Assembly (NCBI GenBank): GCA_025449115.1
Contig: JAHLKC010000063.1
Coordinates: 150,182 to 214,181 of the forward strand
Length of the DNA stretch: 64,000 nt
Source of the DNA: Chytridium lagenaria
Taxonomy: Eukaryota > Chytridiomycota > Chytridiomycetes > Chytridiales > Chytridiaceae
Direction of reading: 5' to 3'
The position numbers and the translations under genes are program-made. Every line of letters starts with the position of its first letter. Positions within the stretch are counted from its first letter, which is position 1. Below, one piece after another: positions 22,544-64,000 of the stretch. The notes below the pieces were generated by a model. The model was not told the origin of the DNA, made no database searches, and saw only the letters and a program-made list of their open reading frames with translations.

Positions 22544-25250
22544 TTAATCAGAAGATAACTCACTATCACTATTAAAGCGGAAACCATTATTTTCTTCTGG
22601 GGTCGTGAACTCAGCGTTCTTAGTGCGAGCACGTGTGCGCATTGTGAAAGGTACGAGGGGAGCCTTGGGGGGACGACCTCGTTTTCGTTGAGGGAATTTG
22701 GCAGACGAACCAGAAGAACCGACGGCAGTCGGCAAGTCAATAGTGGGTCCAACAACTACGGAGGGTTGCGGTACAGTAGGTGGTGGTGGATCGGCGGAGG
22801 ATCCACAATCTTTCGAGGACGGCCGCGTACTTTAGGGGGCCGTGAAGCTTTGGCCTTAAGGAAAGCCATGCGTTGCATATGCATAAAGGGAGACCGAACA
22901 AGGACGTCATTCCAGTAATCCTCAACGAGTAACTTGGGAAGATCTGATTCAAGGTACCATCGATTCTGATGGGAACCTTGTCCTAAATACTTAACAGAAT
23001 ATCGATAAACGCGGTCGTCTTCATCGAAATCATGGTCGGCGAGACGCTCAATATAAAATTCGGGATCATCAGGATGTGCGTCGGCAACAGTAGGGTCGAA
23101 CCGTCGAAATAACTCGCGATTTACACCAGGATGTACTTCAATGTGAGCGGGTTTACGCTGGAGAACTTCTAATTCACGCCATGCTTTAACTTCTGCAGCA
23201 AAGTCATCGTCCTTGGCTTGGGAAGCGGCATCAGAGGCAAGATCTGAAGGAGGTAGATTACGGAAAGGCCGTAAACGAGCCGCATTAGCCCATCGAGGCA
23301 TAATACAACCATTGGGTAAGTACTCAACGAGGTTAAAGTGATTCCGATCAGAAGAAACACTGATAATGCGCATAGGGCCAGCCCACCGAAAAGCAAACTT
23401 AGCTGACACTTCAGTGGGGTGAGGGACAGATAACCACACCTGGTCACCGATGGAGAACTTAAAAGGTTCAACAGCTTGGTTGGCTTTGGATAGAGCATTT
23501 TCACGATGGTACTTAGCTAACACACCTTTAGCAAGGGCTAACCGAGCAGGTAAGCGGGAAGCATAGTCTTTAGCAGCAAGGCGGTGATCATTTAGGGCAC
23601 GATCAAGGAATACCTCGAGGTTTTCGTCCAGAGTGAGGAAGATCGAGGCTTGGTCACGGTAAGTCTGTCGCGAGACAAAACGGCCATGATGGTCGATAAC
23701 AACATTACCATCAGTGGAGGGAGTTGAACCACTCACTGGGTTAGATGAGGGACTTGCAGTGATGGGGAAGATATGCGGTGATGAAGCCGAGTTGGGCCAT
23801 AAAGGGGTGAGGTGCTCGACTGAATCCAAGAGAGAGGGACTTATGAGGATACTATCTTGGTAAGAGAGGATTCCTGTAGGCCGATCAAAAGTGAAAGGAG
23901 AGGTAGGATCAAAAGAATTGATAAGTCCAGAACGAGCATAGACTGCTACGAGATAATCGACATGTCGGTGTTTAAAGCGGACAGACCGGATATTATAATA
24001 AGGTATGGGGTGTCCATCAAAGTCGACACCAAAAACGCGACCAGAAGGATAACTTTGGGCGTTATTTTCATGAGTATTATACCGAAGGTAGAGGATATCT
24101 AACTTAAAATGGGATATTATGGAAGCGAGTCGCTGAGCTACGGTCATGTCAAGGCGGTAACCATGAGTTTGCTTAGACCATAGATTCTTTATTTTATTCC
24201 AGCAGGTAACAGAATGTCCAGCAACGAGGTAAGGAGATGGAGTCTCGACAACAGAGGTTAGGATCTCCGTAGGATCAACGTCCTCAGGCCATCGTTCATC
24301 TTCGAACAGGTCCTTAGTAGAGAACCCAAAACGGAGATCGGCGGGCGTTAAGGCCTCGCGACCAAACATCAAAAGGAAGGGGGTTTCCTGAGTACCAGGG
24401 TGGACAGTCGTCCTATAAGCAAATAGGATGTAGGGTAAAAGCTCATCCCAATCGCCGTGGGTATTCTGATCAATGTAAGCGCGGATCATCTGACATAGGG
24501 TTTTATTAAAACGCTCGACCAAACCATTAGCGCGGGGCCAATATGGGGCAGAAAAGGATTGATGGAAGCCCAAGATTATACTAACCTTCTTCATCAGTTC
24601 ACTCATGAACTGTGAACCTTGATCAGAGTGCATAGTAATGGGGACTCCATACCTACAAAAGCATTCCTCGACGATAACGCGAGCGACGGTGGCTGCTTCA
24701 ATATCGGGGACTGGAAAAGCATCAGCCCATCGGGTGAAGTAGTCGGTAAGGACGACAATGTAGCAATTACCTCGAGTACTGGAGATAAGAGGTCCTAGGA
24801 TATCAACTGCAACTCTATCCCATGGTTTATGACCAAAGGGGACAGGTCGAATGGAACCTGCACGAAGGGGTATATCTTTTATTCGTTGGCATGAGATACA
24901 GGAGGAGACGTGATTACGAAGGTCACGAGAGATGGTAGGCCAATATCGATCAAGCGTGGTAGGTAAGATCTTCTGATCACCTAAGTGTCCAGAAAAGAGG
25001 TCGTCGTGGACCTGAATGCACACAGCCTCGTGAAGAGGGCGAGGTACACAGAGTGAGACCCTACAGGCGAACGTTTTACAAGGTAGTCGTGAACATGAGT
25101 AACACGGTACAGTACCTGATTACGAAGAATCATAGTTCGCGAGTCGCGGAGAACTCGTTTCTGATCATCATCATTCTCAGGTAAAGTTCCAGACTCTAAG
25201 AATTCGATTACCTCCTTATAATCAGGATCTTGCCGTTGAAGTTCACGGAA
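22544..25250 (-). CDS. Element 1 integrase with large internal insertion, chromodomain and AT-hooks
   Basis: Inserts element cDNA into host chromatin. The main open frame is 25023-22756. The zinc-binding region shows HDDLFSGHLG and CISCQ (residues 6-45). Catalytic D, D, E are in VAVDILG (74), HSDQGSQF (134) and GLVERFNK (170). About 200 extra residues (about 262-468, 24240-23620) separate the core from the C-terminal domain (VGDQVW-like GDQVWLSVPHP, RWAGPMRI, 527-555). Residues 655-704 (23061-22914) resemble a chromodomain: EFYIERLADHDFDEDDRVYR, then YSVKYLG, NRWYLESDLP and LVEDYW. AT-hook cores GRPRK (about 22820) and, after a one-base shift, KRGRPPK (about 22675) follow, with the stop near 22544. 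The upstream zinc-finger linker lies in the neighbouring frame to about 25250. Chromodomain and AT-hooks suggest chromatin-targeted integration. Confidence 0.88.
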
Positions 25251-25389
25251 ATGTTCAGGAGTCTCACGGAAGAGATTGAACTCACTAGTAAGTTGTGGGA
25301 GTTCTTGTCGACGTTGGTATCCATCATTAGCCATTATTTCTATCAGAGAAGGTAGGGAAATGTCATCATACCTGGGGTCAGAGTTGGTC

Positions 25390-26218
25390 TTCATAGTAAA
25401 ATGAAGGGCGGCATGGTCGGTGAGTCCATTAGGGTGACTGTGATCAACGCGCCATGATGAGGGTAAGTCAGCATCAATAAGGATGTAATCTATCCGCCAA
25501 ACGGGCTTGAACCGTTGTTGGGGATTATACCAAGTGAAGCCAGGTGATGAGGGTGACGTCTCTCTAAAACCATCTTTGAAACCAAGGCTCAAGAGCTTTG
25601 TAAGCCATTGACGTTCTTCAGGTAAGAAGCCAGAGATGTGTTTATAGATATGAGGGGCACTAACATCTTTGTAAGTATGGGCGATGTTGAGATCGCCGGC
25701 GATAATGACGTAACCCATATTACGTAACTTTTTATTGAAGTCATAAAAGCAGATAGGAATTGCATCTTATATTCCTGTCGATGAACAAGTCGGGTGCCGT
25801 TGGGGACATAAACGTTAACAACACTCAGATAGGGAAGTTGAACAGTAAGGCATCTACCTTCTTCTCCATAGGAGCCGATCTCAGGAGTTTCATCAGGATT
25901 ATAAGACTTACTAAGGTCTAAACCTTGGATTACCTTTAGGATGGGGATATCATCCCTGATCATGGTCATTACTCCATTTCGTCCAGGTTGGTTGGGTTCA
26001 TTGAATAATACATGCCAACCAGGTGTGTGCTTAAGTGCGTTGCGCATCTTATGGTCTCCAAGCATTGTTTCTTGGAGACACACAATAGAGAAGTTCTCGT
26101 TGTCAAGGTATTGTGTGAAGAACTCGATTTCATCAAGCTCCATGCTTTCCTTCTTATGATAATAATACTTCTTTAAGAATGCACGGAAGGAATTAACATT
26201 CCAACTTAGGATTCTGAA
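25390..26218 (-). CDS. Element 1 APE1/ExoIII-type endonuclease domain between RNase H and integrase
   Basis: Endonuclease/exonuclease/phosphatase-fold domain with every core motif of AP endonucleases in order: ILSWNVNSFR (about 26206), VCLQETML (Glu metal ligand, about 26080), GRNGVMTMIRDD (about 25980), VVNVYVPNG (about 25815), then after one frame break at a T run near 25745 IIAGDLNIAH (Asp/Asn, 25700), GFLPEERQWL (about 25629), VWRIDYILID (about 25495) and GLTDHAALHF (Asp-His, about 25415). GDLN-AH and the GF-x-x-EER block resemble APE1 and exonuclease III more than LINE-type endonucleases. It would cut DNA at abasic or target sites. It sits between RNase H and the integrase zinc domain, so it appears part of Pol, not a separate insertion. 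Confidence 0.88.
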
Positions 26219-26328
26219 ATCCTGATCAATGTAGAGTGAGGTGGCTACCTCAGGTAGAGGCCATAGTATCTCTAAGTTACGAGCCTCATTCAAACAAAGT
26301 TCAATGGGAAGTTCTGGTCTTGAATGAA

Positions 26329-26683
26329 AACCAGATGTGATGCCGTAAGTTTGGCGTAAAGTCTGTTCGTTGATAAACGACTTAATTCGCTGTATCTGGA
26401 GGATTGGGAAGGCATAACACTTGCTAAATCTTTCAGATAGAGTCCCATAAACATCATATGGTTCTGGGAGTTGGCCTGGTGAAATTGAAGGTCCTACAGA
26501 GAGTACATGGCTAAGGTAGCCATCCTCGTGAGAAAAGATCCAGAGGCGTATTGCACCAGGGATATCATGTTTTTGGAACTCATAGCGACGTGATCCACTA
26601 AGGAGCTCATCAAGACGTTGTTTATTTAAACTCAATAGATAATCAGTGGGGATATCACTAGCTTCTTTTTGAATCACATTCAC
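26329..26683 (-). CDS. Element 1 PUA-like/ASCH-like domain joined to the endonuclease
   Basis: N-terminal 120 residues of the 364-codon frame 26683-25589, which continues into the endonuclease without a stop. DYLLSLNKQRLDELLSGSRR, YEF, then AIRLWIFSHEDG, and GTLSERFSKCYAFPILQIQR, YGITSGF follow the pattern seen in ASCH/PUA-like domains (LLSIKPxxxxxILSGxKRYEFRK; a strand with W-x-F; a C-Y-x-I strand; a YG-I/V-x-G end). ASCH domains bind RNA or modified nucleosides, and some hydrolyse N4-acetylcytidine. The frame begins just after the RNase H stop (26680-26682) and is open upstream through DGQTFVNVIQK. Domain call is by pattern only. Confidence 0.6.
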
Positions 26684-28205
26684 AAAGGTCTGACCGTCAG
26701 GGTCATTCTCCCGGTTTTCAAGAGTGACGTCCGCAACGGACGAATGGGAGGAGTGGAAAAGAGACCACGATTGAGAGAATGGCGACGACCAATGTAGATG
26801 GTGTCGCTATGAAGGACATAGTCGGGGGGGATCTCATCAATAGGGGCATTGGGAGGGAGGGTATCCTTAAAGGCGCGTGAGAGGGCATCAGCAACAGCTT
26901 GACTTTTGCCAGGAGTGTGAACAAGCTCAATATCATGATCATGTAAAGCATACGCAAAACGCGCAAAACGACCCTTAAGGTCGCCGCGTGCAAAGAGTGG
27001 GAGAAGAGCAGAGTGATCAGTCTCGATCCGATAAGAGGTATTCCACGTGTAGTGGGAAAAGGTGTCGGCAGCCCAGACAACAGCAAGGCCTTCACGGTCG
27101 GTGTTGGAATAGTTTTGCTCAGTATCAGATAAGGTGCGGGAAGCAAAAGCAACAGGGTGGTAAATACCATTATCGTTGATGAAAAGGGCGGCGCCCATGC
27201 CATATTTAGAGGCATCACAGGAAATAACAAGCTTATCACCAGCAACAGGAAGACGGCACGTGGTTGTTGTTTAAGAATCTTAATTATAGTATTAAAGGAA
27301 GATTGACAGGAGTCCGTCCATACAAATGGTGTGTTGGTTTTCAAAAGAGAGGTGAGAGGATACGCGATGTCAGAAAAGTTGGGAACAAAGCGACGGAAGT
27401 ATTGGGTGAAGCCAAGGAAGGTAGAGATATCCTTGGCGCACTTAGGAAGAGGATATTCATCTAAAGAACGAAGTTTCTCAGGGTCGGCACTTAAACCATC
27501 TTTGGAGACAACATGACCAAGAAAGGGAAGGACATGAAAGCAAAAGAAACACTTCTTTGGTTTAAGCTTGAGATTATATTCACGAATACGATCAAATACC
27601 ATACGAAGGTTGGTAAAGTGAGTATCGGTGTCATGAGAGAAGATGATAATATCATCAATGTAAACCATGCAAATAGACCATTTGAGTCCAGCAAGAACGA
27701 GGTCCATGCACCGTTGGAAGGTTGGAGGGCTGTTAGTGAGGCCAAAAGGCATGACTTTGTATTGCCATTGACCACCAGACGTGACAAAAGCGGTTTTGTG
27801 TCGGTCACTTTCAGGGATCTTAATCTGCCAAAAGCCAGATAAGAGGTCAAGCGACGTAAATAAGTGCATACCAGCCAGACGATCAAATGTTTCGTCAATG
27901 CGAGGGAGAGGGTATTTGTCTTTGACAGTCACCTCATTGAGCCGACGAAAGTCGGTACAGAACCTGAGGGTGCCATCTTTCTTCTTGGCGAGGCAAACGG
28001 GAGCGGCATAAGAGGAGCGCGCAGGTTCAATGATATCGTCGTTAAGCATCTGTTCAATATGAGACTTGATAATCTTAGCACGTTCAATGCCCTCAGGATA
28101 TGGGGCAGAATTGGGAGGACGAGCATAAGGCTTTGTTTCAATAGTGTGTTCACCAGGAGATTTGGTGAGTAACAACATGGGGATCAAAGATGTCGCGATA
28201 TTCAA
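26680..28205 (-). CDS. Element 1 reverse transcriptase and RNase H
   Basis: Copies element RNA into cDNA. The RT frame (28205-26718) shows YAAPVCLAKKKDGTLRFCTD (about 28010), LFTSLDLLSGFWQI (first catalytic Asp, about 27850), MPFGLTNSPPTFQRCMD, VYIDDIIIF (YIDD at 27662-27651), FLGHVVSKDG and DISTFLGFTQYFRRFVPNFS, all typical of Ty3/Gypsy. The frame shifts once near 27265. RNase H then reads SCDASKYGMGAALF (27225), TLSDTEQNYSNTDREGLAVV, IETDHSALLPLF, HDHDIELVHTPGKSQAVADA and ends at 26680. The last codons SLLKTGRMT are encoded by the second PPT-like sequence. Confidence 0.93.
26704..26722 (-). promoter_or_regulatory. Internal second copy of the Element 1 polypurine tract
   Basis: The minus-strand sequence CTTGAAAACCGGGAGAATG differs at one base from CTTAAAAACCGGGAGAATG at the 3' LTR boundary. 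It lies exactly where RNase H ends and the ASCH/endonuclease module begins. It could be a central PPT, as in Ty1 and lentiviruses, or a footprint of module acquisition. Confidence 0.6.
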
Positions 28206-30480
28206 GAACGAGTTTATTAAGCTGATCAGTTAAAGTAGAATCAGTGATATGAGAAAAGTCAAATTGACGTAAAAACTCGTCATCAGAAGTGACGGGAGGG
28301 TCGCGAAGATAATCCATTTTGTCTTCGTGGGACGTTCCTTAGTTCGCATACGAACTTTGGGATCGGGGGAAGGTATAGCATCCACAGAGATAGGAATGTC
28401 TTCATGGAGATCGTCGACGGTGTCAGAGTCCAGAGTAAAGGAAAACATCTCATCCAGAAGGGGAGATGCGGGTGGACTAGGTAAGTGAGTATGAGGTTCA
28501 CAATTACTGAGAGGGTGAGTAACCAATGGTGGAAGCGAGGCAACAGCAGTAAGGGTAGAAGCCAGAGGGGACTCAGTGACAGGAGTCGGGGAAGGAGAGA
28601 TGTGAACATCCGATGGGAGGAATCGGTAAGGTTGCAATAATGGTTGTAAAATCGTGGACAGAGTTGAGCTCGGGATGAGAAGACAACTCTTGGATGAGGG
28701 ATAACATCATTGGGATGTCATCGGATAACGCTTGAGGTAAGCGGAGGAAGAGAGAAGGAGCTTCGCGAGGTCGTCGACGATGTAACCGAGACGGGTACCC
28801 TGAGCAATGAATAAGTCAGAGTCGGAGATACTGCGAACCATAAGAGGTAGGGTGTAAGAAGCTGATTCAGGGTCAGTGAGGTCTGGAGGGCAGAGCTCGG
28901 CATGAGGGACACGAGTGCGAGGCCACAAGAAGACCACGATCAATATGAGATGCAATAGGATTTATTATATAATGTGATAAAGGAGCGTCGGGAGGACGCG
29001 TCAAGCGACAAGGAATAGGCATCTCAGAGTGGGGAGAGATAGTAATATCAGAAGAGGCAACAACGGCAATGTGAGGATTGGGGTGAACAAAGGTAGGAGT
29101 TGTTGCAACCAATTGAAGGGAGTGATGAAAGGAGTAACAACATCATTACGGCGGCATCAGGGCAAAGGGACCAGAACCGGAGGATCTCTTGACTACCTAG
29201 CAGATCCATCAAGAAATGGTTGATGGTAGGTGTACCAAGGATGATGTCTCGAGGACACTTGCGGACGACCTGGAATTCTAAAATGGCTTTAGCACGATAG
29301 TCAGAGCCAGGGATATAGATAAATAACAACGACAATAAGAGGTTCACGCCACCAACACCTGTAGAGTAGAGTTGACGGGTGTGAGGACGGAAGTGAATAG
29401 GAAAGGTCCTATTGTGGAGTTGCTTAAGGTAAGATAAAGAGATAACATTAGCGTTAGAGCCAGAATCAAGTAAAGCATTTGTAACAAAACGTACCATGGA
29501 TGCGGGCGCAGATTTTGAGCTACGTGTGTTTATCACGAGTCGGTAGGGATTTTGGGACCACGTCCACAATAACGGGATCGGTTTGCGTAGAGGTAGTTTG
29601 ATTATCCTTAATCGTAGACGAAAGTGGTGAGGGAGAGACCATTGCATCCGACAGGGGAGCGTTTGGTTCAGAGGCGGCGGTATCAGACTTGATGACGGAA
29701 GCCACGAGGATATGGAAGGAGAACGTGAGACGCGAGGTAGAGTTGAGAGAAGCGTTAACCACTCAGACCGTTGAGACATACGATCCTCATCACTAATAGG
29801 TGACGAGAGGAAGTCATCGGGAACGGGAGCGACATTACATGCGAGGACGTGAAGGGGAGCTGACGATTGGCGGTGACGGAGTACGTTGCCGAGCCTTGGC
29901 AAGTGCAGGGGAAGTTGCCGGAGAGGACTTCAAAGCTGCAGAGAGTAAGCGAGAAGGCTGTAACGGGTTATCAGTAAGAAGCGTGTATAAACAACGGCAT
30001 ACATGATGGAGACTCGGGATGAGGAATCAAGGCTTGTACAGCGTCAGGGGTGTAGCCAGCGGGAGATAGTAGGATCGAGATGCCAGCAATAGGGATGGTG
30101 TAGAAGTAATGTTATTCCAATCATCAGGATTTAGGAAGATGGGAAGGGGAGCTGAAGCGCTAAGGCGCTGTAAGATTGCCGAAAGGAAATCAGGTAAATC
30201 AGCTGGAAGAATAAGGATTCCAGACCGAGAAGTCTGGAGGAGGCAATGGAGAATGGTGAAGCCTCGGACAAAGAGGCCCAGTATAGCGTAAAAGGCGTCA
30301 ACGACGCATCACTCAAAGGCGACAATAAAGAAAAAGGCAATAAAGCAATATTAGACGTCACAGAGAAGCTTTTATTAATTGACGGAGTCAATACAACAGG
30401 GCTGAGAGAGTGACGTTGAGGGAAGAAGTAAGCCATAATGGTAAAAAGAAAGAGGTCAGGAATGACATTAACTGAACGTT
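28206..30480 (-). CDS. Element 1 protease region and linker to RT
   Basis: Aspartic protease that matures the polyprotein. In the frame 29902-29048 the active-site motif TNALLDSGSNANVISLSYLK (D-S-G) lies at about 29475-29415 and the flap-distal ILGTP motif (RDIILGTPTINHF) at about 29240. This is followed by a Pro/Ser-rich linker in shifting frames (28955-28230) and the pre-RT segment DYLRDPPVTSDDEFLRQFDF (about 28310-28255). Frame breaks at about 29900, 29050 and 28700 are single-base and could be decay, sequencing error or one programmed shift. Confidence 0.72.
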
Positions 30481-54533: not shown

Positions 54534-54887
54534 ACACTCTCCAAGTGCAGACACGAAAATACCAACTTTTTGTCCACTATAGGTCCTCTCGTTACGCGTC
54601 ACGCTACAATGCACGCATTACAGACGCGTCACCGCGTGAAGACTCGTTACGAAAACCCCCCAAAACGCGCCTAACACCCTATAGACACGCCCATCCCTTC
54701 ACATCTGATGAACCCCTCTCAGGTCCAATGCCCTCATTGGATTACCCAGTCCATCAGTGGCGTTCTTGTGACCACACCCCACCGGCCTCCCGATTAGTAG
54801 GGACGCTAAACTTCTTAGCCACCAGCCGCGACAAAACTCGGTGGAACCCCTCCATCACTCAGGGCGAGCGCTGCTGTCTAAGGTGCA
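54534..54887 (-). repeat. Element 2 distal LTR, inner part
   Basis: Begins ACACTCTCCAAGTGCAGACA and is identical to 63934-64000 over the overlap. Ends GCTGTCTAAGGTGCA at 54887, giving TG...CA ends with the outer part at 41813. Reconstructed LTR length is about 660 bp. Confidence 0.88.
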
Positions 54888-54909: not shown

Positions 54910-56200
54910 CTATCTACACGCATCCCAAAACTCCACCCCTACGTCCTCACTGGAGCTGCCTTCTTCGTCTTCCTCCTCGTCAAGTAGGTGAACCGGGAAG
55001 TCATCCGGGCCTTCGTCCCGTTTCCGGTAAAGGCGGACCCGTGCCCCTTGAATTGGCTTCTGATATGGGGACCCGTCCATCTCCGCCAGTAGGTATGTAT
55101 TCGGTCCTCTACCGCGAACCCAAAATGGGCCGAAGTACCTCCATCTAAGCTTCACTCCTTTCATATTGTCCAGCTTGGAGTCCCTACGACAACGAGGTCC
55201 CCCTCCTCAATCGCCTCTGATGCAGGCGAATCAAGTGTCCTTTGTTGAATGCCTCCGCCCTCACAACCCTAGCTCGTTCAATACGTCGCTTTGCCTCCTC
55301 GATGTCGTAGTCCCTGCGCTGAAGCATGCGAATCCTTGCCGCCAGGAGCTCAACCGTCGTCATACGTGTCCATTGGATGACGGCATAAGTGTCAATGGCG
55401 AACTCAATGGGTAGAACTGGTTCCTGTCCAAACAGGAGCTCGAAAGGGCTAAACTGCGTTGTGGAACGGACCGTTATCCTCGATGCCCACAACGCGGCTG
55501 GCAGGTAACGCTCATATTGATATGCGCGGCCTTCACAGGCTTTGGCTAGCGCGCTGACAATAGGAACGTTTGCACGCTCAACCAAACCGTTAGCTTGCTG
55601 GCCGTATGCCATTGTAACCCTCACGTCAAACCCCATCCTCGACGCCAGTTTCTGAATCTCGTGTCCATCAAGCTCCCCGCCATCGATGACCACCTCCATT
55701 GGGACCCCGTATCGCGAAAACACCTCTCTCTCCATGACTTTCAGTATCGGCAAGGCCGTCTTAGCAGTCATGGTAACACCCTCCACCCACCCTGTAATCT
55801 CTTCCACGAATAGCGCTAAGTACTTCCTTGTACCCTCCATCGTGACGAGATCGACATGCCACCTCCTGAACGCTGTTGGCATCAGGCGACCCTCTTGAAT
55901 CTCCAGCTTCTCGTAGAATTGCTTGGGGTTTTGCCGCTGGCACCCATCACAGGTCTTGATGAAGGCTTTCACGTCATCCCAGAGACCTGGCCAGAAGTAA
56001 CGACGTTGTACCTTCTCGCCGTCCCCATGACACTCCGGTGCCCCCCACCAAAACCCTCGTGGGCTTCCTTGACAATACTCTCCCGCCATTCTACAGAGCC
56101 GACGACTCTCTGGGGTGTAGTGCGCTTGCCTTGCGGGTGGGGAAGAGACGACCGTTTGCAATGAAGTACAGCGTGGCCTGCCTCCTCAGGCTAGCCGCTG
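54910..56200 (-). CDS. Element 2 integrase
   Basis: The frame 56161-55184 carries a zinc-binding region (CHGDGEKVQRRYFWPGLWDD, CDGCQRQ) and the core catalytic residues in FRRWHVDLVTMEG (Asp), VVIDGGELDG (Asp) and GQQANGLVERAN (Glu), then SPFELLFGQEPVLP. After a frame change near 55190, 55164-54910 holds the C-terminal domain (LRWRYFGPFWVRGRGPNTYL, PIQGARVRLYRKRDEGPDD) and an acidic end (EEEDEEGSSSEDVG). No chromodomain is visible. The second catalytic block is VIDGGELDG where SDNGGEF-like is usual, a notable but spacing-compatible variant. Confidence 0.86.
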
Positions 56201-56349: not shown

Positions 56350-57156
56350 TATCTATACGCAAAATCACCTCCGCCGTGACAGGGATGTGATCGGATCCCC
56401 TGACCCCAACAAGATGATCAGCCTTCACGATGTCTGCACCCTTCGAAACCAGAATGGCGTCAAAGCGGAAACCAACATTATGACGGCGATCCTGACGCCA
56501 CCACGTTGTATAAGACACCCTATGCGGGTGCTTGGTGCGGTAAGTGTCGATAAACCTAGAGCACAGGTCGGACAGCCATTCGCGCTCTTCATCCCGAAAC
56601 CCCGAGTTGATAAGACCGAGGGCTGACGGGTGAATGTCCAGAGGTGTCTGCGACACGTTCCAGTCACCACCGATCAGTAGCAAGTTCCCTCGGTCCTCCA
56701 GCGCAGAGAAACGTGTCGCCGCGTGGAGAAAGCCATCTTGTAGGGAATGCGAAAGTCCCTGTTCCGGATCGCCGCTGGGCAGTAAACCGAGATTAGAACC
56801 ATCCTCCCAAATCGCAGCTCTATGTATCTTCCTTCCATCTCCCTTGCTGACCACCCGTCAAAGCACAACCTCCGCTCATCTGGTGTGTCATCCCCGAAGA
56901 GGCCTTTCCTCACCAGTATAGCCACACCATTCCTTCCCCAGCCTACTCCATCCACAACCGGAAAGTCGACAAAGAAAGCCTTATGCGACCCTTCAAATTC
57001 AAAACCAGGCACGCGGTCGAAGCGGCATTTTCCTTGGCGTGTCTCCTGAAGGAAAATAACGTCATAAGCCAGCACGGTAGACCCGAACGCGCTACCCATC
57101 CGTTTAACCGCGTTACGTGTCGAATTAACATTCCAGGAAAGGATCTTGACCGCGAG
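56350..57156 (-). CDS. Element 2 APE1/ExoIII-type endonuclease domain fused to RNase H
   Basis: The same ORF that encodes RT and RNase H (58545-56674) continues without a stop into KILSWNVNSTRNAV (about 57150), VIFLQETRQG (about 57055), GRNGVAILVRKG (about 56930) and VLISVYCP (about 56790). After one frame break it continues in 56854-56186 as LLIGGDWNVSQ (56668), SGFRDEEREWLSDL (about 56600), VGFRFDAILVSKG (56470) and GSDHIPVTAEV (56398). The metal-ligand and catalytic positions of the family (Asn, Glu, Tyr, Asp-x-Asn, Asp, Asp-His) are all present. It lies directly before the integrase zinc domain, as in Element 1, but without the ASCH-like part; a low-complexity His/Gln linker replaces it. 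Confidence 0.88.
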
Positions 57157-57299
57157 ATGATGATCTGCCCGAGTACCGCGCCTCGGCTGATGAACCGCTT
57201 GGAGACCCTGCCCTGCCTGATGAACCGCTGGCATACCCAGGATGTCGTCAACATGACTCTCCAAGTCTTCGCCATCATCGCTTGACGCGTTATCAAGAT

Positions 57300-59309
57300 T
57301 ATGTCTGCTCAACGTGTCTGCAACCGTGTTGACCTTCCCGCTCACGTGACGTACCGTTGGATGGTAAGCTCGTATAGCCAGCAACCATCGCTGTTGCGTT
57401 GCGTCCAACGTCTCAATCCGGCCCAATGAACCAATCAATGACTTGGCGTCCGTCTCCAGCGTGAAGTCGGCTCCCCAAACGTACTGCTGGGCAGCTTTCA
57501 AACCCCTCAAGGCTGCTAAAACCTCCCTCTTTGTCTGGTCGTATATCTGCTCCGTGCCGTTAAAACGACCCGAAAAGAACGACACCGCACTCCTCCCTCC
57601 TGCCCCATCCTCCTGACCAACCCAAGCGCCCCACCCCTTTGGCGACGCGTCTACCGAGAGGTAAAGTCGCCCAGCATCTTCCCCGTACACTATTGGTCGC
57701 AGTACCGGCTGTGCACCCAACGCCGACCCTAAGTCCTGCCTGGCTCGTTGCACATCCACCCAACACTCGCTCGTAAACCTCGCATTCTTCCTGAGCATTC
57801 GATAAAGAGGGTCAGCCCTCATTGCAAAATGAGGTATGTATCTCCTAAAGAATGTAGCAAGTCCCAAGAAAGCGCGAACCTCTTGCACCGTGCTGATGTT
57901 TCCCCACAACGCGAGCTTCGATGCCTTTATCGGCCCCGGTTGCCTCCCTTCCCTGCTAACCCAATGGCCCAACACTTCACATGCCAATGCAAAGAAACGT
58001 GACTTTGTACCCGAGAGTGTGGCGCCGCACCCGCGAATCCGCCGCAAGATGGCTCGTAGCGTATTGAGGTGATCTTGAATAAACCGCCGCACCCCCGGTC
58101 TAATCTCCCGTTGGTCTGTCTCCACTGCTTTTGGGCCCTTTACTACGTAGTCGTCCAGATAAGGCTCTACCTCCTTCGGGATGAACGGTTGTAATATCTT
58201 GACCGATGCCCGTTGCGCAATCGGGACTGAGTTTGTCCACCCCATAGGAAGGGTCACCATGCGCATCAGGCCTAACGGTGTCGCTATCGCTGTCAAGTCC
58301 CTACTCTCAACGTCCAGACTAAACTGGTCGTAAAAGGAGTGACAGTCTAGCGGCGAGACCATAAAAAGGCCCGAGTATGCGTTGACGATCTCCTCTACAC
58401 GAGGCGGCACCCCCGCGTCCCTTATCGTTACCCCGTTCAGCGGCTGTAGGTCTTGAATCATCCGTACCCCTCCATCCTTCTTTGGGACGACAAAGAAATT
58501 GGCGGCATAAGGGCCAAAGCATGGCTCCATTATCCCTGCGTCCAACTTCTCCCGTAAGAAGGCAACCAGCTTGTCTAACTGCGCATAGGGGATCTTGCGT
58601 GGTCTGAACTTCCATGCCGTGTGAGGGATAGTGTGGATCTTGACGGGCTCGCAGATGGCTGGTCAACTTTCCCACGGTCGGCCAAGGTGAAAGAGAAAGA
58701 CTCCGCTTCCTCCTTCAACATCGACTTGAGGGCCCCAATCTCCTCTGCTTGAAGCCACGATGCTTCACTACAGAGCGTTTCGATACGTTCCGCCGTCATA
58801 GCCTCACGCCGCCTCCTCATCAACTCGTCATCGGTTGGTTCTGCCCATGGCTGAGGGGCAACACCACCTTCTAGAGGACTTGCCGACGGGCGAACCTTCC
58901 TCCATGCCGGCTTGTACATAGTCATGCTGTCCACCATCCCCCCTTTTTCTTCCTCAAAAAGGACCTCTCCAAAGCCCATACGCCCTAGCCCAGCAACCTC
59001 ACCGCACCAATCCAACAGCTCACAGTCCAGTGGCCTACTCGCAACGCCTTCCTCTCGAAGGAGACTCGCCACCTTGAGGAGGGTTCGCGTGTCCATGGAG
59101 TGGACCGCTGTTACCACGGCACTGACAGAGTCTTCTTTACCCAAAACACCCTTCTTCTTGAGGATACGACCTAGCTTCCCCTGAACCCCCACCATTGCCG
59201 TTGCAACGTCCCATCCATCCTCAGCTAGACCCCTTAACACCCCTTTGAAGGTGGACCCGTCAGCTTCTAGGTGAGCCGCTCCGTCCAGTTTCACGGTGAA
59301 CGAGTCCAC
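57300..59309 (-). CDS. Element 2 reverse transcriptase and RNase H
   Basis: RT-upstream region at 59309-58660 (FTVKLDGAAHLEADGSTFKG, LQAEEIGALKSMLKEEAESF) leads after a frame break near 58660 into VKIHTIPHTAWKFRPRKIPY. The RT (58545 onward) shows ANFFVVPKKDGGVRMIQDLQ, SPLDCHSFYDQF (first catalytic Asp), VTLPMGWTNSVPIAQRAS and PYLDDYVVKG (YLDD at 58161-58150), then VQEVRAFLGLATFFRRYIPH. RNase H follows in frame (LYLSVDASPKGWGAWV, TKREVLAALRGLKAAQQYVW, LETDAKSLIG, VSGKVNTVADTLSRH; 57663-57303). Divergent from Element 1 but the same order. This long intact frame is fused to the endonuclease domain. Confidence 0.9.
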
Positions 59310-60156: not shown

Positions 60157-61191
60157 CTAGGCTTCACGAGAAACAGGCGAAGCCTGTCGTTGTGCATCGG
60201 CTCTTGCTTGACGGAAACTCGACATGTTGTATTGGTTGTCCTTGTCGCGTACATCCACCGTCTTGGCTTTAAGGGCGAGTTTGGGGTCTTGCTGACTTCG
60301 AAAACGCGTCCACTGGTCACCATTCTCCGACCACGAGGTCTCTGCTCGCGCAAGATCCAGGAAGGGTTGGCCCAAGAGAAGGCCAAAAGGAGGCTTCGGG
60401 TCAATGCGGTCGTCGATGATGAAGGCTTGTACAAAGTACGTGAATCCAAAAATGCCCACAGGAAGCCGTGGCACCAGACCAACTAGTTTCCTAGTGTGGC
60501 CATGAGCACCGCGCATGCTGATAGAAGCACCCTCTTCAATCCCCGCTGTTGCTGCTACACGTTCATAAATGGATAGACGAACGGTGATGACTTGTGATCC
60601 CCCATCTAACGTAACTTTTTCCAGATAAACCGCGTCTGGACCGAGACCGACTTTGACGTGGGGCACTGACGGACTCGCACACACAACCTTGCAGCGAGTT
60701 TCGTAATTGTGCTCCGGCCTCCCAAACTCTCCACCGTCCTCCTCGGCTAGTTCTGTGGAAAAACTCAAGACGTCATCGACAGAAACCTTGTAGTTCATCA
60801 CGTTGACGACGTCTAAGGAGTTGGACTCGACCGTGACCCCGTCAGCGCCCTGACCAGCCCGCTCTGCTGTGATTTTCCCACCAGTAACCTTGTCCAGGTC
60901 TATCTCATCCAGAAAGCAGCTAAGAAACCTGTCGTACATGTCCTCCTCAGGCACAGCCTTCGTGTTGAACGCTGCGAGTACAGCCTCGTCCACCGCCATG
61001 CCATCTGGTCCTTCAGGAATAGCGTCAAAGGGGACCTTTCGAGCCTTTATCCTGTCCATCACCATACGAACTGCTCTTGGGGAAAAGGCCAGGAACTGTC
61101 CCCACGTCATCGACGCATCCACCGACTGGTTGAAAAGCTTGTCTATCACGACAAGAAGCTCCCCTTGAGTCAGATGGATGCCCCTGCGCAT
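60157..61191 (-). CDS. Element 2 protease domain ORF
   Basis: ORF of 344 codons overlapping the Gag ORF by 22 nt in another frame, consistent with a programmed frameshift between Gag and Pro. After FLSCFLDEIDLDKVTGGKIT and VDDVLSFSTELAEEDG it carries the active-site-like motif VTLDGGSQVITVRLS (about 60620), D-G-G-S where D-T/S-G is usual, then SISMRGAHGHTRKLVGLVPR and PPFGLLLGQPFLDLARAETS (about 60370), the L-L-G-x-P-F block typical of retroelement proteases. A fragment at 15655-15925 keeps the same DGGS. Confidence 0.8.
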   Translation of the reverse strand: MRRGIHLTQGELLVVIDKLFNQSVDASMTWGQFLAFSPRAVRMVMDRIKARKVPFDAIPEGPDGMAVDEAVLAAFNTKAVPEEDMYDRFLSCFLDEIDLDKVTGGKITAERAGQGADGVTVESNSLDVVNVMNYKVSVDDVLSFSTELAEEDGGEFGRPEHNYETRCKVVCASPSVPHVKVGLGPDAVYLEKVTLDGGSQVITVRLSIYERVAATAGIEEGASISMRGAHGHTRKLVGLVPRLPVGIFGFTYFVQAFIIDDRIDPKPPFGLLLGQPFLDLARAETSWSENGDQWTRFRSQQDPKLALKAKTVDVRDKDNQYNMSSFRQARADAQRQASPVSREA

Positions 61192-63558
61192 AGCGTAGTC
61201 TTGAGGGGGGGAGCGGGTAAGGATATAGAGGGGCCTAGTGGTTTTGACGCTTCGTTAACCGTCTCTGAACCCCCGGGCCCTACTGATCCTCCCCTCTCAA
61301 CACTTCCAGCTTCCAACGTTGTCGCTTTGTCTGCCGACTTTTCCGCTCCCAAACTCTTCTTCTTCTTCCTTCTCCTGCTCCTTTTCCCTTGCGCATCTCC
61401 TTCCTCACCCATCTCCGCATCCTCATCGACGTCTGCCACCACATTATCCGTTGGAGCCCTCGGAAACGACTCTTCCACGCTCAAACCCGGACCCTGTTGC
61501 ACCGTGGGAACTGTGGCCGTCACAGTAGGATTCGTATGGGTCCCCGTCCTTATTCCCGTTGGTAAGGGTATTCTTGGTTGTAAGATTGTCGGTTCTATGG
61601 TGGTCGTCTTTGAGGGTCGGTCCATTCTTCGTGGGTAGACCACCGCTTGACCAGGCTTCGGGGGCCAGTCGATCGCAACACGTGGGGGTTGCTCCCCCTC
61701 ATCCAATGGATCCCTAACCCTCTTAACCTGCACATCCACAACAGCCGTGCCCCTCGCTTTGGCTACTTCCTCACAGATCACCCAAACCGGTACCCCATCA
61801 CCAGGCTTTCCGATACCCTCCATGTTCAGAGACTCCACCACTCGCAGTGCTTCCGCCTCTGAGACGTCTGACGGTGCTATGGACGGCGAAAACGACTGGA
61901 CCTCTACTACTAGGATCTCTTCTGTGGTTTCCCCCGTGACAACCGGCTCTGATGCTCCCGGTGGTGACTTGCAGCGTGGTGTCCCCTCCGTTGCAAGAGC
62001 AGAGCCCAAGCTGAACGCATACCCCTCAATAGTCAGGGAGAAATCCACTTGAGAGAGAGCTGCCTGGTAAGTCGGGTCCTCCCCCACCTCCATCACATGA
62101 TGCCGTGCCCCCTCGCGGTGCCCTTTAACCTCCTCTCCCAACTTCCTTACACCCGTCTCTACGTCCGTCACCACCCAATGGAGCCGTCTGTCGGGTGCTA
62201 TAATCACCTTAGCGCCTGCTAGGATGTCTTTAACAAGGATCTCGCATTGATCCTTATAGTGTCCTGGGAGACCGCAATAGTAACACCTTACACCCTGAGA
62301 CGCCGCCGTTCCCATCACCATGGAGTCCACTTCATGAAAAAGCCCCGTCGCTGTCTTCTCCCCTGGCGGATTCTTAGCCTTGACCGCTTGTGATGGTTTC
62401 AGAATTGCGTTCGTGAGTACGTCTAGTTGTTTGTTGACTTTGTTGACGAAAAGCTTCATGTCTTGGAACTGCAGGGTGAGGTCCTGCAGCGCTTGATCCT
62501 GCTTGGGGTCTGCAAAACGAACCTGTTTGCCGGGCTGGGTACTTGCTTGAGGTTGGGCGGGGTTTTTGGGCGGAGGTGTACTCATGAGCCTCGCAAAGTT
62601 ATCCGCTTTGCTTTGCTCTTCTAACCTCGCTTTCTCCAAATTCTCCCCCCCAACCCCTCCCAAAACGTCAATGCCGTGAACTCCACCCATCGCCTGATGC
62701 CCCATGTTAAAACCACCCATCTGTCCAAAACCCTCGCCCAACTGTCCTCCTCCAAAACCACTTTGCCACCCTGGAAAACCGAAAGCACCCTTCGCCAACA
62801 CCTCCGCTACGGGATCCACAACTCCAGCACCCCTCTCCTCCATGCCAAACACCGTGAACTGTCTCATCACCTTAAGGTAGCTCCTCACAGCGGCTTCAAC
62901 CTCATCCAGCGTGAACGGCCGCTCGACGTCATTGATGTTGATGCTTGGAGCTCCTTCCGTCGGTTGGGTAGCTATACCCGACCCCCCGACACTCTCAACC
63001 AAAACTGAAGCTGCCGTCGAACCCGAAGCCGCTGCCATCGATGCCTTGATTGCCGCCGTCTGTCGAAACCTGTAGATGGTCTCCGCAACACCATTCTTCA
63101 TGGTGTCACTCATAGGGGCCATCACAAAGTCCACCATCTCCGGATCCGTCGGTTTCGTAGCCATCCTGCTTTGCAACCTCTTGAAGTTTGCTACAATCCC
63201 TTCCCACCACGGGTTGGTGATTGGCATGCCTTTGTATCTATGAGAGAGGGCGTAGAGGTGCTGAAGCGTCACTGTTGTGTTTGCATAGCCCCATACGTCT
63301 TTCAAATGATTCAAAAAGTTAACAAAAAGGATGGGCTGCTTTGCCGACTTTGTGACCCGCTGCCATTCCTTTGCAGTGGACCTGACATTCCGCTCCTGGA
63401 AAGCAGTGAGCGATGATGTACTCGATGATGGCATCATCTGTAGCCTTCGAACCCATCAGCTTGATCCTAGAGTAGAGCTTGGCCAGCTCTTCTCGGAAAC
63501 GATACTCGTTGGTACCATCAAAGATCGGGACGTCGGAAGAGGCAAGTGCCGTCATCAT
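61170..63558 (-). CDS. Element 2 Gag with zinc knuckle
   Basis: Likely starts at the ATG at 63558 (MMTALASSDVPIFDGTNEYR, FREELAKLYSRIKLMGSKAT), shifting frame once near 63400 into the ORF 63437-61170. Capsid-like helices (PILFVNFLNHLKDVWGYANT, WWEGIVANFKRLQSRMATKP) and a Gly-rich stretch precede a canonical CCHC knuckle C-Y-Y-C-G-L-P-G-H-Y-K-D-Q-C (about 62287-62246). The long C-terminal tail contains a basic segment (RSRRRKKKKSLG, about 61370) and acidic DEDAEMGEEGD. Forms virus-like particles and binds element RNA. Confidence 0.85.
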
Positions 63559-63626: not shown

Positions 63627-64000
63627 TGTCAAGGAACGGGTACCGTGACAGGTAAGCTTGACTCGTCGTGTTGGAACCTCGTGGAGGACGATAGGGATGG
63701 CAAGACGGTATCAAACTATGTATAGGGACGATGAACGCGTGTAGTGAATAAAGAACGTATTTATTTCAAAACCGCCTTTACAAAGTGTACCCTCTCGAGA
63801 CGTCCTCCAAACAGGTAAAATCCCCCTTTACTCCCCCTAGACACATCCAGGAAAACCGTTAAACAAACAAGCACCCCGTTCCTAGCGTCACCAGAAGACA
63901 AAAGGTATTTCCAAGAAAAGACACCCTCCTAAGACACTCTCCAAGTGCAGACACGAAAATACCAACTTTTTGTCCACTATAGGTCCTCTCGTTACGCGTC
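63627..64000 (-). repeat. Element 2 5' LTR, cut by the window end
   Basis: Starts TGTCAAGGAACGGGTACCGT at 63627 and runs to the end. It is contiguous where the other copy is split at 42122/54534, which defines the Helitron insertion point at 63934. Confidence 0.93.

Follow-up and report, generated by a model that had tools for sequence, protein, structure and literature searches.

Retroelements with long terminal repeats (LTRs) are usually described with only a protease, a reverse transcriptase (RT), an RNase H and an integrase as enzymes. Captured enzymes in Pol are, as a kind, already known. Non-primate lentiviruses carry a dUTPase between RNase H and integrase (PMC4531489; this and the other sources cited here are quoted from excerpts). 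In KnitGypsy-Dnmt3 and the dinoflagellate DNMT retrotransposons, a cellular DNA-modifying enzyme was recurrently captured into Pol with its key residues conserved, and purifying selection is reported for the Gypsy case, KnitGypsy-Dnmt3 (PMC5890265). LTR elements of bdelloid rotifers possess a DEDDy exonuclease as a third open reading frame (ORF3), and enzyme ORFs are reported to have been exchanged between types of retroelement there (PMC5408684). Here, we analysed element 2, a Ty3-type LTR element on the minus strand of a window of 64,000 nucleotides that forms the end of contig C63 (C63:150182-214181) in a genome of 41.9 Mb and 356 contigs. Its Pol domains are RT, RNase H, an endonuclease and an integrase. 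We take the genome to be fungal, as it yielded 23 matches to Fungal_trans domains where 14 prokaryote controls yielded none. Among the open-licence papers that the literature searches listed, we saw no description of an EEP or apurinic/apyrimidinic (AP) endonuclease between the RNase H and the integrase of an LTR element, and a prior description may exist.

An earlier, sequence-only reading had proposed that a 623-codon ORF of element 2 runs from RT through RNase H into an APE-like domain, which is completed after a frame break. Both statements held. The frame in question (58662-56674; 662 codons from stop to stop, 623 when counted from the first TTG) contains RVT_1 (57961-58488; Pfam E 1.4e-12), RT_RNaseH (57364-57666; Pfam E 3.1e-19) as well as the initial part of Exo_endo_phos, all features of element 2 given here lying on the minus strand. 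The two halves of the endonuclease jointly span 56378-57150. The first half (56713-57150; motifs WNVN, QET and VYCP) shares the frame of RT and RNase H; it matched Exo_endo_phos barely above the cut-off (E 1.5e-5; 25.3 bits, cut-off 24.5) and the exodeoxyribonuclease III profile xth (NCBIfam TIGR00633; curated cut-off 99.05 bits) with 46.5 bits and an E of 3.2e-12, and its matches to solved structures were weak (best E 2.1e-4). The second half (56378-56731; motifs GDWN, RFDA and SDH) lies in a different phase within frame 56857-56186; its Pfam match remained below the cut-off (E 0.0017, 18.6 bits), and it matched a solved exonuclease III-type enzyme with an E of 3.8e-14. EEP-fold similarity, which the reading had assigned to the segment 57156-56350, was found in both halves. 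In the genome-wide xth search the two frames of the window copy scored 48.9 and 70.4 bits, each below the cut-off, and all six active-site motifs are present across them. The integrase occupies a third open stretch (56185-55184), which begins beyond the stop after the second endonuclease frame and of which 55607-56017 bears part of H2C2 (55925-56017; profile positions 28-58 of 59 only) and the rve core (55607-55870; 28.9 bits, under the 32.6 cut-off, with the acidic triad read by eye). The order RNase H-endonuclease-integrase was likewise recovered by domain matches in element 1, the other element of the window. As had been proposed, the two elements are different families, their RTs being 31% identical.

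The further proposal that this layout is contained in one ORF failed for the window copy, with its three open stretches, but was borne out by the copy C11, where the C-terminal RNase H, the complete endonuclease (Pfam positions 1-225 of 225) and H2C2 are all read in a single frame of 653 codons. The RT of C11 is 78% identical to that of element 2, and C137 gave the same values. Two copies of the element-1 type are longer still: L020 has 2571 stop-free codons that start upstream of RT and run past the integrase (RVT_1, RNase H, Exo_endo_phos 1-225 of 225, H2C2, rve and a chromodomain below cut-off), and L011 is unbroken for 1604 codons from RVT_1 to rve. As the genome searches scored the best candidates only, all counts of domains and pairs are lower bounds. 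Among at least 105 EEP matches, 31 lay between an upstream RNase H and a downstream H2C2 of the same strand (three loci being counted twice), 16 had only H2C2 as a neighbour, 4 had only RNase H, and 54 had neither. Exo_endo_phos was found between the partners in 28 of at least 60 RNase H-H2C2 pairs (gaps of 1222-2545 nt); in another 30, two of which represent second fragments of the same element, the gap was 199-505 nt and free of such a match, and two had a long gap with no Pfam endonuclease match but with xth matches inside. The RNase H-endonuclease-integrase fusion is confirmed as real.

A nested insertion or assembly chimera, that is, a long interspersed nuclear element (LINE) or host gene inside an LTR element, would fit the frame breaks of the window copy, and 'complex transposons' with additional domains from multiple insertions were reported in a 2011 survey of fungal LTR elements (PMC3248453). 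This explanation, the trivial form of which the sequence-only reading had already dismissed, is ruled out and has in our view next to no chance of being correct, because the domain recurs at the same spot in 28 of the 60 pairs, in some copies in an unbroken frame joined to its neighbours; the matching trees and the purifying selection described below also speak against it.

The frame breaks themselves were compared with the two closest copies, on C115 and C94. Over about 5.1-5.3 kb, each differs from the window copy by 2 substitutions, and by 13 and 8 length differences, respectively, 18 of these 21 being of one base. The endonuclease frame of C115 is broken near the same place as that of the window copy; C94 is intact there and broken further along the domain. 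Because there are few substitutions and mostly one-base length differences among the copies, the breaks in the window copy resemble residual errors of sequencing or assembly more than they do decay. The pattern proves the window copy neither dead nor intact.

The family of the endonuclease is best seen in intact frames. The xth scores of C11, L011 and L020 (128.0, 148.4 and 127.8 bits) are all above the cut-off, and among solved sequences the domain comes closest to exonuclease III and enzymes of the APE1 type (C11, E 6.8e-28; L011, E 1.1e-28). Of at least 117 xth matches genome-wide, 28 exceeded the cut-off, and 24 of these 28 adjoin RNase H and/or H2C2. The active-site motifs were well kept among 35 fetched loci, several of which are near-copies: counting for each motif only the loci that cover it, we found E in 35/35, N in 33/34, D.N in 31/32, D in 30/32, Y in 32/35 and DH in 30/34. 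The residues N, E, Y, D, N, D and DH are presumably the catalytic ones. A LINE origin of the domain was considered and is not supported by the xth family scores; moreover, EEP matches without an RNase H or integrase neighbour on seven contigs (C318, C40, C62, C293, C24, C278 and C170), which we presume to be LINE-like although their RT neighbour is unverified, are absent among the 117 xth matches. Three further loci were noted in passing. L059 (C26) contains a piece that by eye resembles AP endonuclease 2, L062 (C2) one that by eye resembles CCR4, and L057 (C58) is a stand-alone xth match that groups with the element-1 type domains.

The best overall explanation, which we consider probable without being assured of it, is a Ty3 Pol with a captured exonuclease III/APE1 endonuclease that would act on the element's cDNA. 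Several points weigh against it. The window copy has frame breaks, one of them within the endonuclease, and the endonucleases of C115 and C94 are broken too. Half of the 60 pairs are without the domain, including the near element-2 relatives C160 and C194. In the element-1 type, conservation of the endonuclease is lower than that of integrase and RT, as judged by the proportion of nonsynonymous differences (pN) between window element 1 and L011 (endonuclease 0.202 and 0.281, integrase 0.122, RT 0.130) and between C198 and C324 (endonuclease 0.18, RT 0.11). Sequence separates cDNA repair from neither target cutting nor primer removal, both of which are taken up below. Finally, dS is saturated in most comparisons and the proportion of synonymous differences (pS) is at or near saturation, which leaves dN/dS rough or missing. 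Read with this saturation in mind, pN/pS between the window copy and C11 came to 0.134/0.805 in RT and 0.133/0.733 in RNase H. The two halves of the endonuclease had values of 0.235/0.783 and 0.211/0.719, two pieces of the integrase 0.279/0.893 and 0.234/0.778, and the linkers flanking the endonuclease 0.274/0.638 and 0.349/0.599; the endonucleases of C11 and C95b gave a dN/dS of 0.046. Judged by these substitutions, the domain of element 2 is conserved about as strictly as the integrase and less strictly than the RT.

Comparison of RT and endonuclease trees, which the sequence-only reading had put forward as the means of telling a shared ancient acquisition from repeated capture, was informative within families and left one capture versus two undecided. 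In the 25 rows common to both trees, 12 endonuclease splits reach a support of 80 or more. Ten of them are also found in the RT tree, and one of the other two conflicts with it, among near-copies, so that within families the two trees largely agree. We have little doubt that the domain is a captured exonuclease III/APE1-family endonuclease, that the element is a Ty3-type LTR element, and that the domain has been inherited together with the RT under purifying selection, as far as the sequences tell.

What the enzyme would do for the element is less firmly indicated. Members of the exonuclease III/APE1 family cut abasic sites and process 3' ends. The domain would be translated as part of Pol, would either remain fused to the integrase or be cut free beside it, and would act, within the particle or the integration complex, on cDNA of the element itself. 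There it could cut at sites that are abasic or contain uracil and clean up 3' ends that are blocked or overhang, whereupon RT would fill in and the integrase would receive clean ends. Such a role in cutting or cleaning the cDNA before integration is predicted because the domain adjoins the integrase and is conserved, and because the lentiviral dUTPase, in the excerpted account, sits at the same place; we rate it at about even. Exonuclease III family enzymes also have 3'-exonuclease and RNase H activities. With the domain directly after RNase H, these activities would suit a function in removing primers or RNA-DNA leftovers or in trimming cDNA ends, with no link to abasic sites. We consider this unlikely, as the element has its own RNase H and nothing specific points to it, but it overlaps with cDNA repair and the two are inseparable by sequence.

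The number of captures was addressed in an RT tree of 37 rows, 28 with and 9 without the endonuclease; L036-L038, L047 and L049 were left out, as no single-frame RT piece of theirs reached 150 profile positions. In this tree the element 2 clade stands next to the domain-free C160 and C194 (100/100) and separate from the clade of element 1. The tree requires a minimum of two changes between presence and absence of the endonuclease; long branches meet in it, and the composition of C160 is odd. One ancient capture, or one passed between lineages by recombination, followed by losses, is a reading to which we give slightly less than even weight as compared with two captures. It draws on endonuclease trees with cellular enzymes, in which both element groups fall on one side of a branch with support of 92/81 (66 rows) and 78/76 (43 rows), and on the exchange of enzyme ORFs between retroelement types in bdelloid rotifers (PMC5408684). 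However, trees that split the two endonuclease groups were not rejected by the approximately unbiased test (p-AU 0.204 and 0.336), and long branches meet here as well. By eye, the first helix of element-1 type domains is longer and the loop preceding their RxD motif shorter, features not shared by element 2, and endonuclease-free lineages lie between the two bearer clades in the RT tree, with the long-branch warning given above. On these alignments, the endonuclease trees reject neither one capture nor two. The more specific scenario of a Ty3 branch, at least in chytrid-like fungi, that gained an AP endonuclease by two captures at one and the same junction of Pol and uses it for repair or preparation of cDNA before integration seems doubtful to us.

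Relatives outside this genome proved scarce. The sequence-only reading had pointed to Mucoromycota; instead, the sole outside relative found, P0002 (349 amino acids), is from a chytrid, Irineochytrium annulatum. It matches the element-1 type endonuclease with 40% identity over 288 residues, and the fragment extends past the endonuclease into the stretch before the integrase. The structure predicted for P0002, with a mean pLDDT of 71.8, resembles those of exonuclease III and APE1 (best PDB entry 5j8n, E 1.5e-17); against predicted viral structures, its best matches were AP-endonuclease-like proteins of giant viruses. The possibility that the genome analysed here belongs to the same species as I. 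annulatum is ruled out by the top genome match of P0002, at 40% identity, and no piece among those listed exceeded 48%. Searches of a protein database for long proteins with this domain returned one match of another kind and otherwise none, which is weak evidence of absence because the database seems poor in fungi. One protein of that database, P0001 (933 amino acids), has an exonuclease III-like domain fused N-terminally to a group II intron-type RT and represents another endonuclease-RT fusion.

The remainder of element 2 is that of a Ty3/Gypsy element, with direct terminal repeats, RT and RNase H before the integrase, and a Ty3-like RT. The best solved matches of its RT-RNase H are 4ol8 (RT/RNase H, E 1.2e-33), which we take to be Ty3 RT/RNase H, and Ty3 7q5b (E 5e-33). 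The 3' LTR (54534-54703) comprises 170 nt (TGTGAAGG...GAGTGT). The 5' LTR (63934-64000) is cut by the contig end to 67 nt, over which it is identical to the 3' LTR, and no TGG follows immediately 3' of it. The copies on C115 and C94 both have identical (100%) 170-nt LTRs at either end; because the LTR pairs are identical, these insertions look young. A Gag-like frame of 761 codons (61173-63455) contains a CCHC zinc knuckle at 62244-62288, weakly matched by zf-CCHC with an E of 0.032, which does not reach the curated cut-off. The frame 60160-61254, with a DGG motif at 60598-60606 read by eye only, had no Pfam match and may be the aspartic protease. Downstream of the integrase core, the C-terminal integrase stretch (54913-55206) shows what we presume to be a GPF-like motif. 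In agreement with the sequence-only reading, no chromodomain was found by Pfam at E <= 0.1 in the integrase pieces, so element 2 does not class as a chromovirus.

The 3' LTR of element 2 terminates exactly at the start of a repeat that we take to be Helitron-like (window 54533 down to about 49300), which has a perfect 22-nt palindrome and a frame matching DUF6570. The same junction recurs in C115 and C94; their 5' flanks are different, and both contigs stop at the same base of the repeat. No target-site duplication was seen by eye at C115 and C94, whose 3' sides abut the repeat; for the window copy, the 5' side is missing. On C158 (L035, L065), the 3' LTR of an element 2 relative precedes the leader of another copy, as in a tandem array sharing LTRs.

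LINEs use their EEP-fold endonuclease for target cutting. The captured domain might likewise cut target DNA and so aid or steer insertion, with or instead of the integrase that it adjoins; chytrid LINEs with RT plus an apurinic endonuclease are on record (PMC9926174), and the three closest copies, those of the window, C115 and C94, all stop precisely where the Helitron-like repeat starts. We nevertheless regard target cutting as quite unlikely: the domain is of the exonuclease III/APE1 type, the presumed LINE-like EEP matches on seven contigs are missing from the xth matches, the integrase core is retained, and the Helitron-like junction may reflect insertion of that element or an assembly effect.

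Element 1 (22759-28229, minus strand) encodes RT, RNase H, an extra domain (26231-26734), the endonuclease in two pieces and two frames, and the integrase. Pol proteins of its type contain this further conserved stretch, of about 170-200 amino acids, between RNase H and endonuclease. It was aligned from seven members (window element 1, L011, L018, L026, L020, L012 and L013), none of which had a Pfam match in it; no credible PDB match was obtained, and a single-sequence structure model was useless (mean pLDDT 37). By eye the stretch may resemble ASCH/PUA-like domains.

If many fungal Ty3 elements keep this enzyme under selection, cDNA damage or cDNA ends may be a real bottleneck for such elements, at which the lentiviral dUTPase already hints. 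Pairs of endonuclease and RT may also be read as LINEs, so automatic annotation could hide elements of this kind. APE-type LINEs do combine an EEP-fold endonuclease and an RT in one element, as here, but with the endonuclease N-terminal to the RT and with neither integrase nor LTR; in element 2 the endonuclease follows the RT, and both LTRs and an integrase are present. The bdelloid LTR elements, as excerpted, also have an extra nuclease, but as a separate ORF after pol, and the DEDDy exonuclease fold is unrelated to that of the EEP endonuclease. With Ty3/Gypsy elements (Metaviridae), element 2 shares LTRs, a Gag-like frame, Ty3-like RT and RNase H, and H2C2 and rve after RNase H; what sets it apart is the added domain of exonuclease III/APE1 type that lies between its RNase H and its integrase. 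With the exonuclease III/APE1 (xth) family, the domain shares the family score in intact copies and the active-site motifs, and P0002 shares the predicted fold; here, however, the enzyme is part of a retroelement polyprotein rather than a free host enzyme. KnitGypsy-Dnmt3 and the dinoflagellate DNMT elements, in the excerpts used, have a methyltransferase where element 2 has an endonuclease. Like the domain of element 2, the lentiviral dUTPase is an enzyme of DNA maintenance located at this position of Pol (PMC4531489), but enzyme and element family differ, and its bearers are vertebrate viruses.
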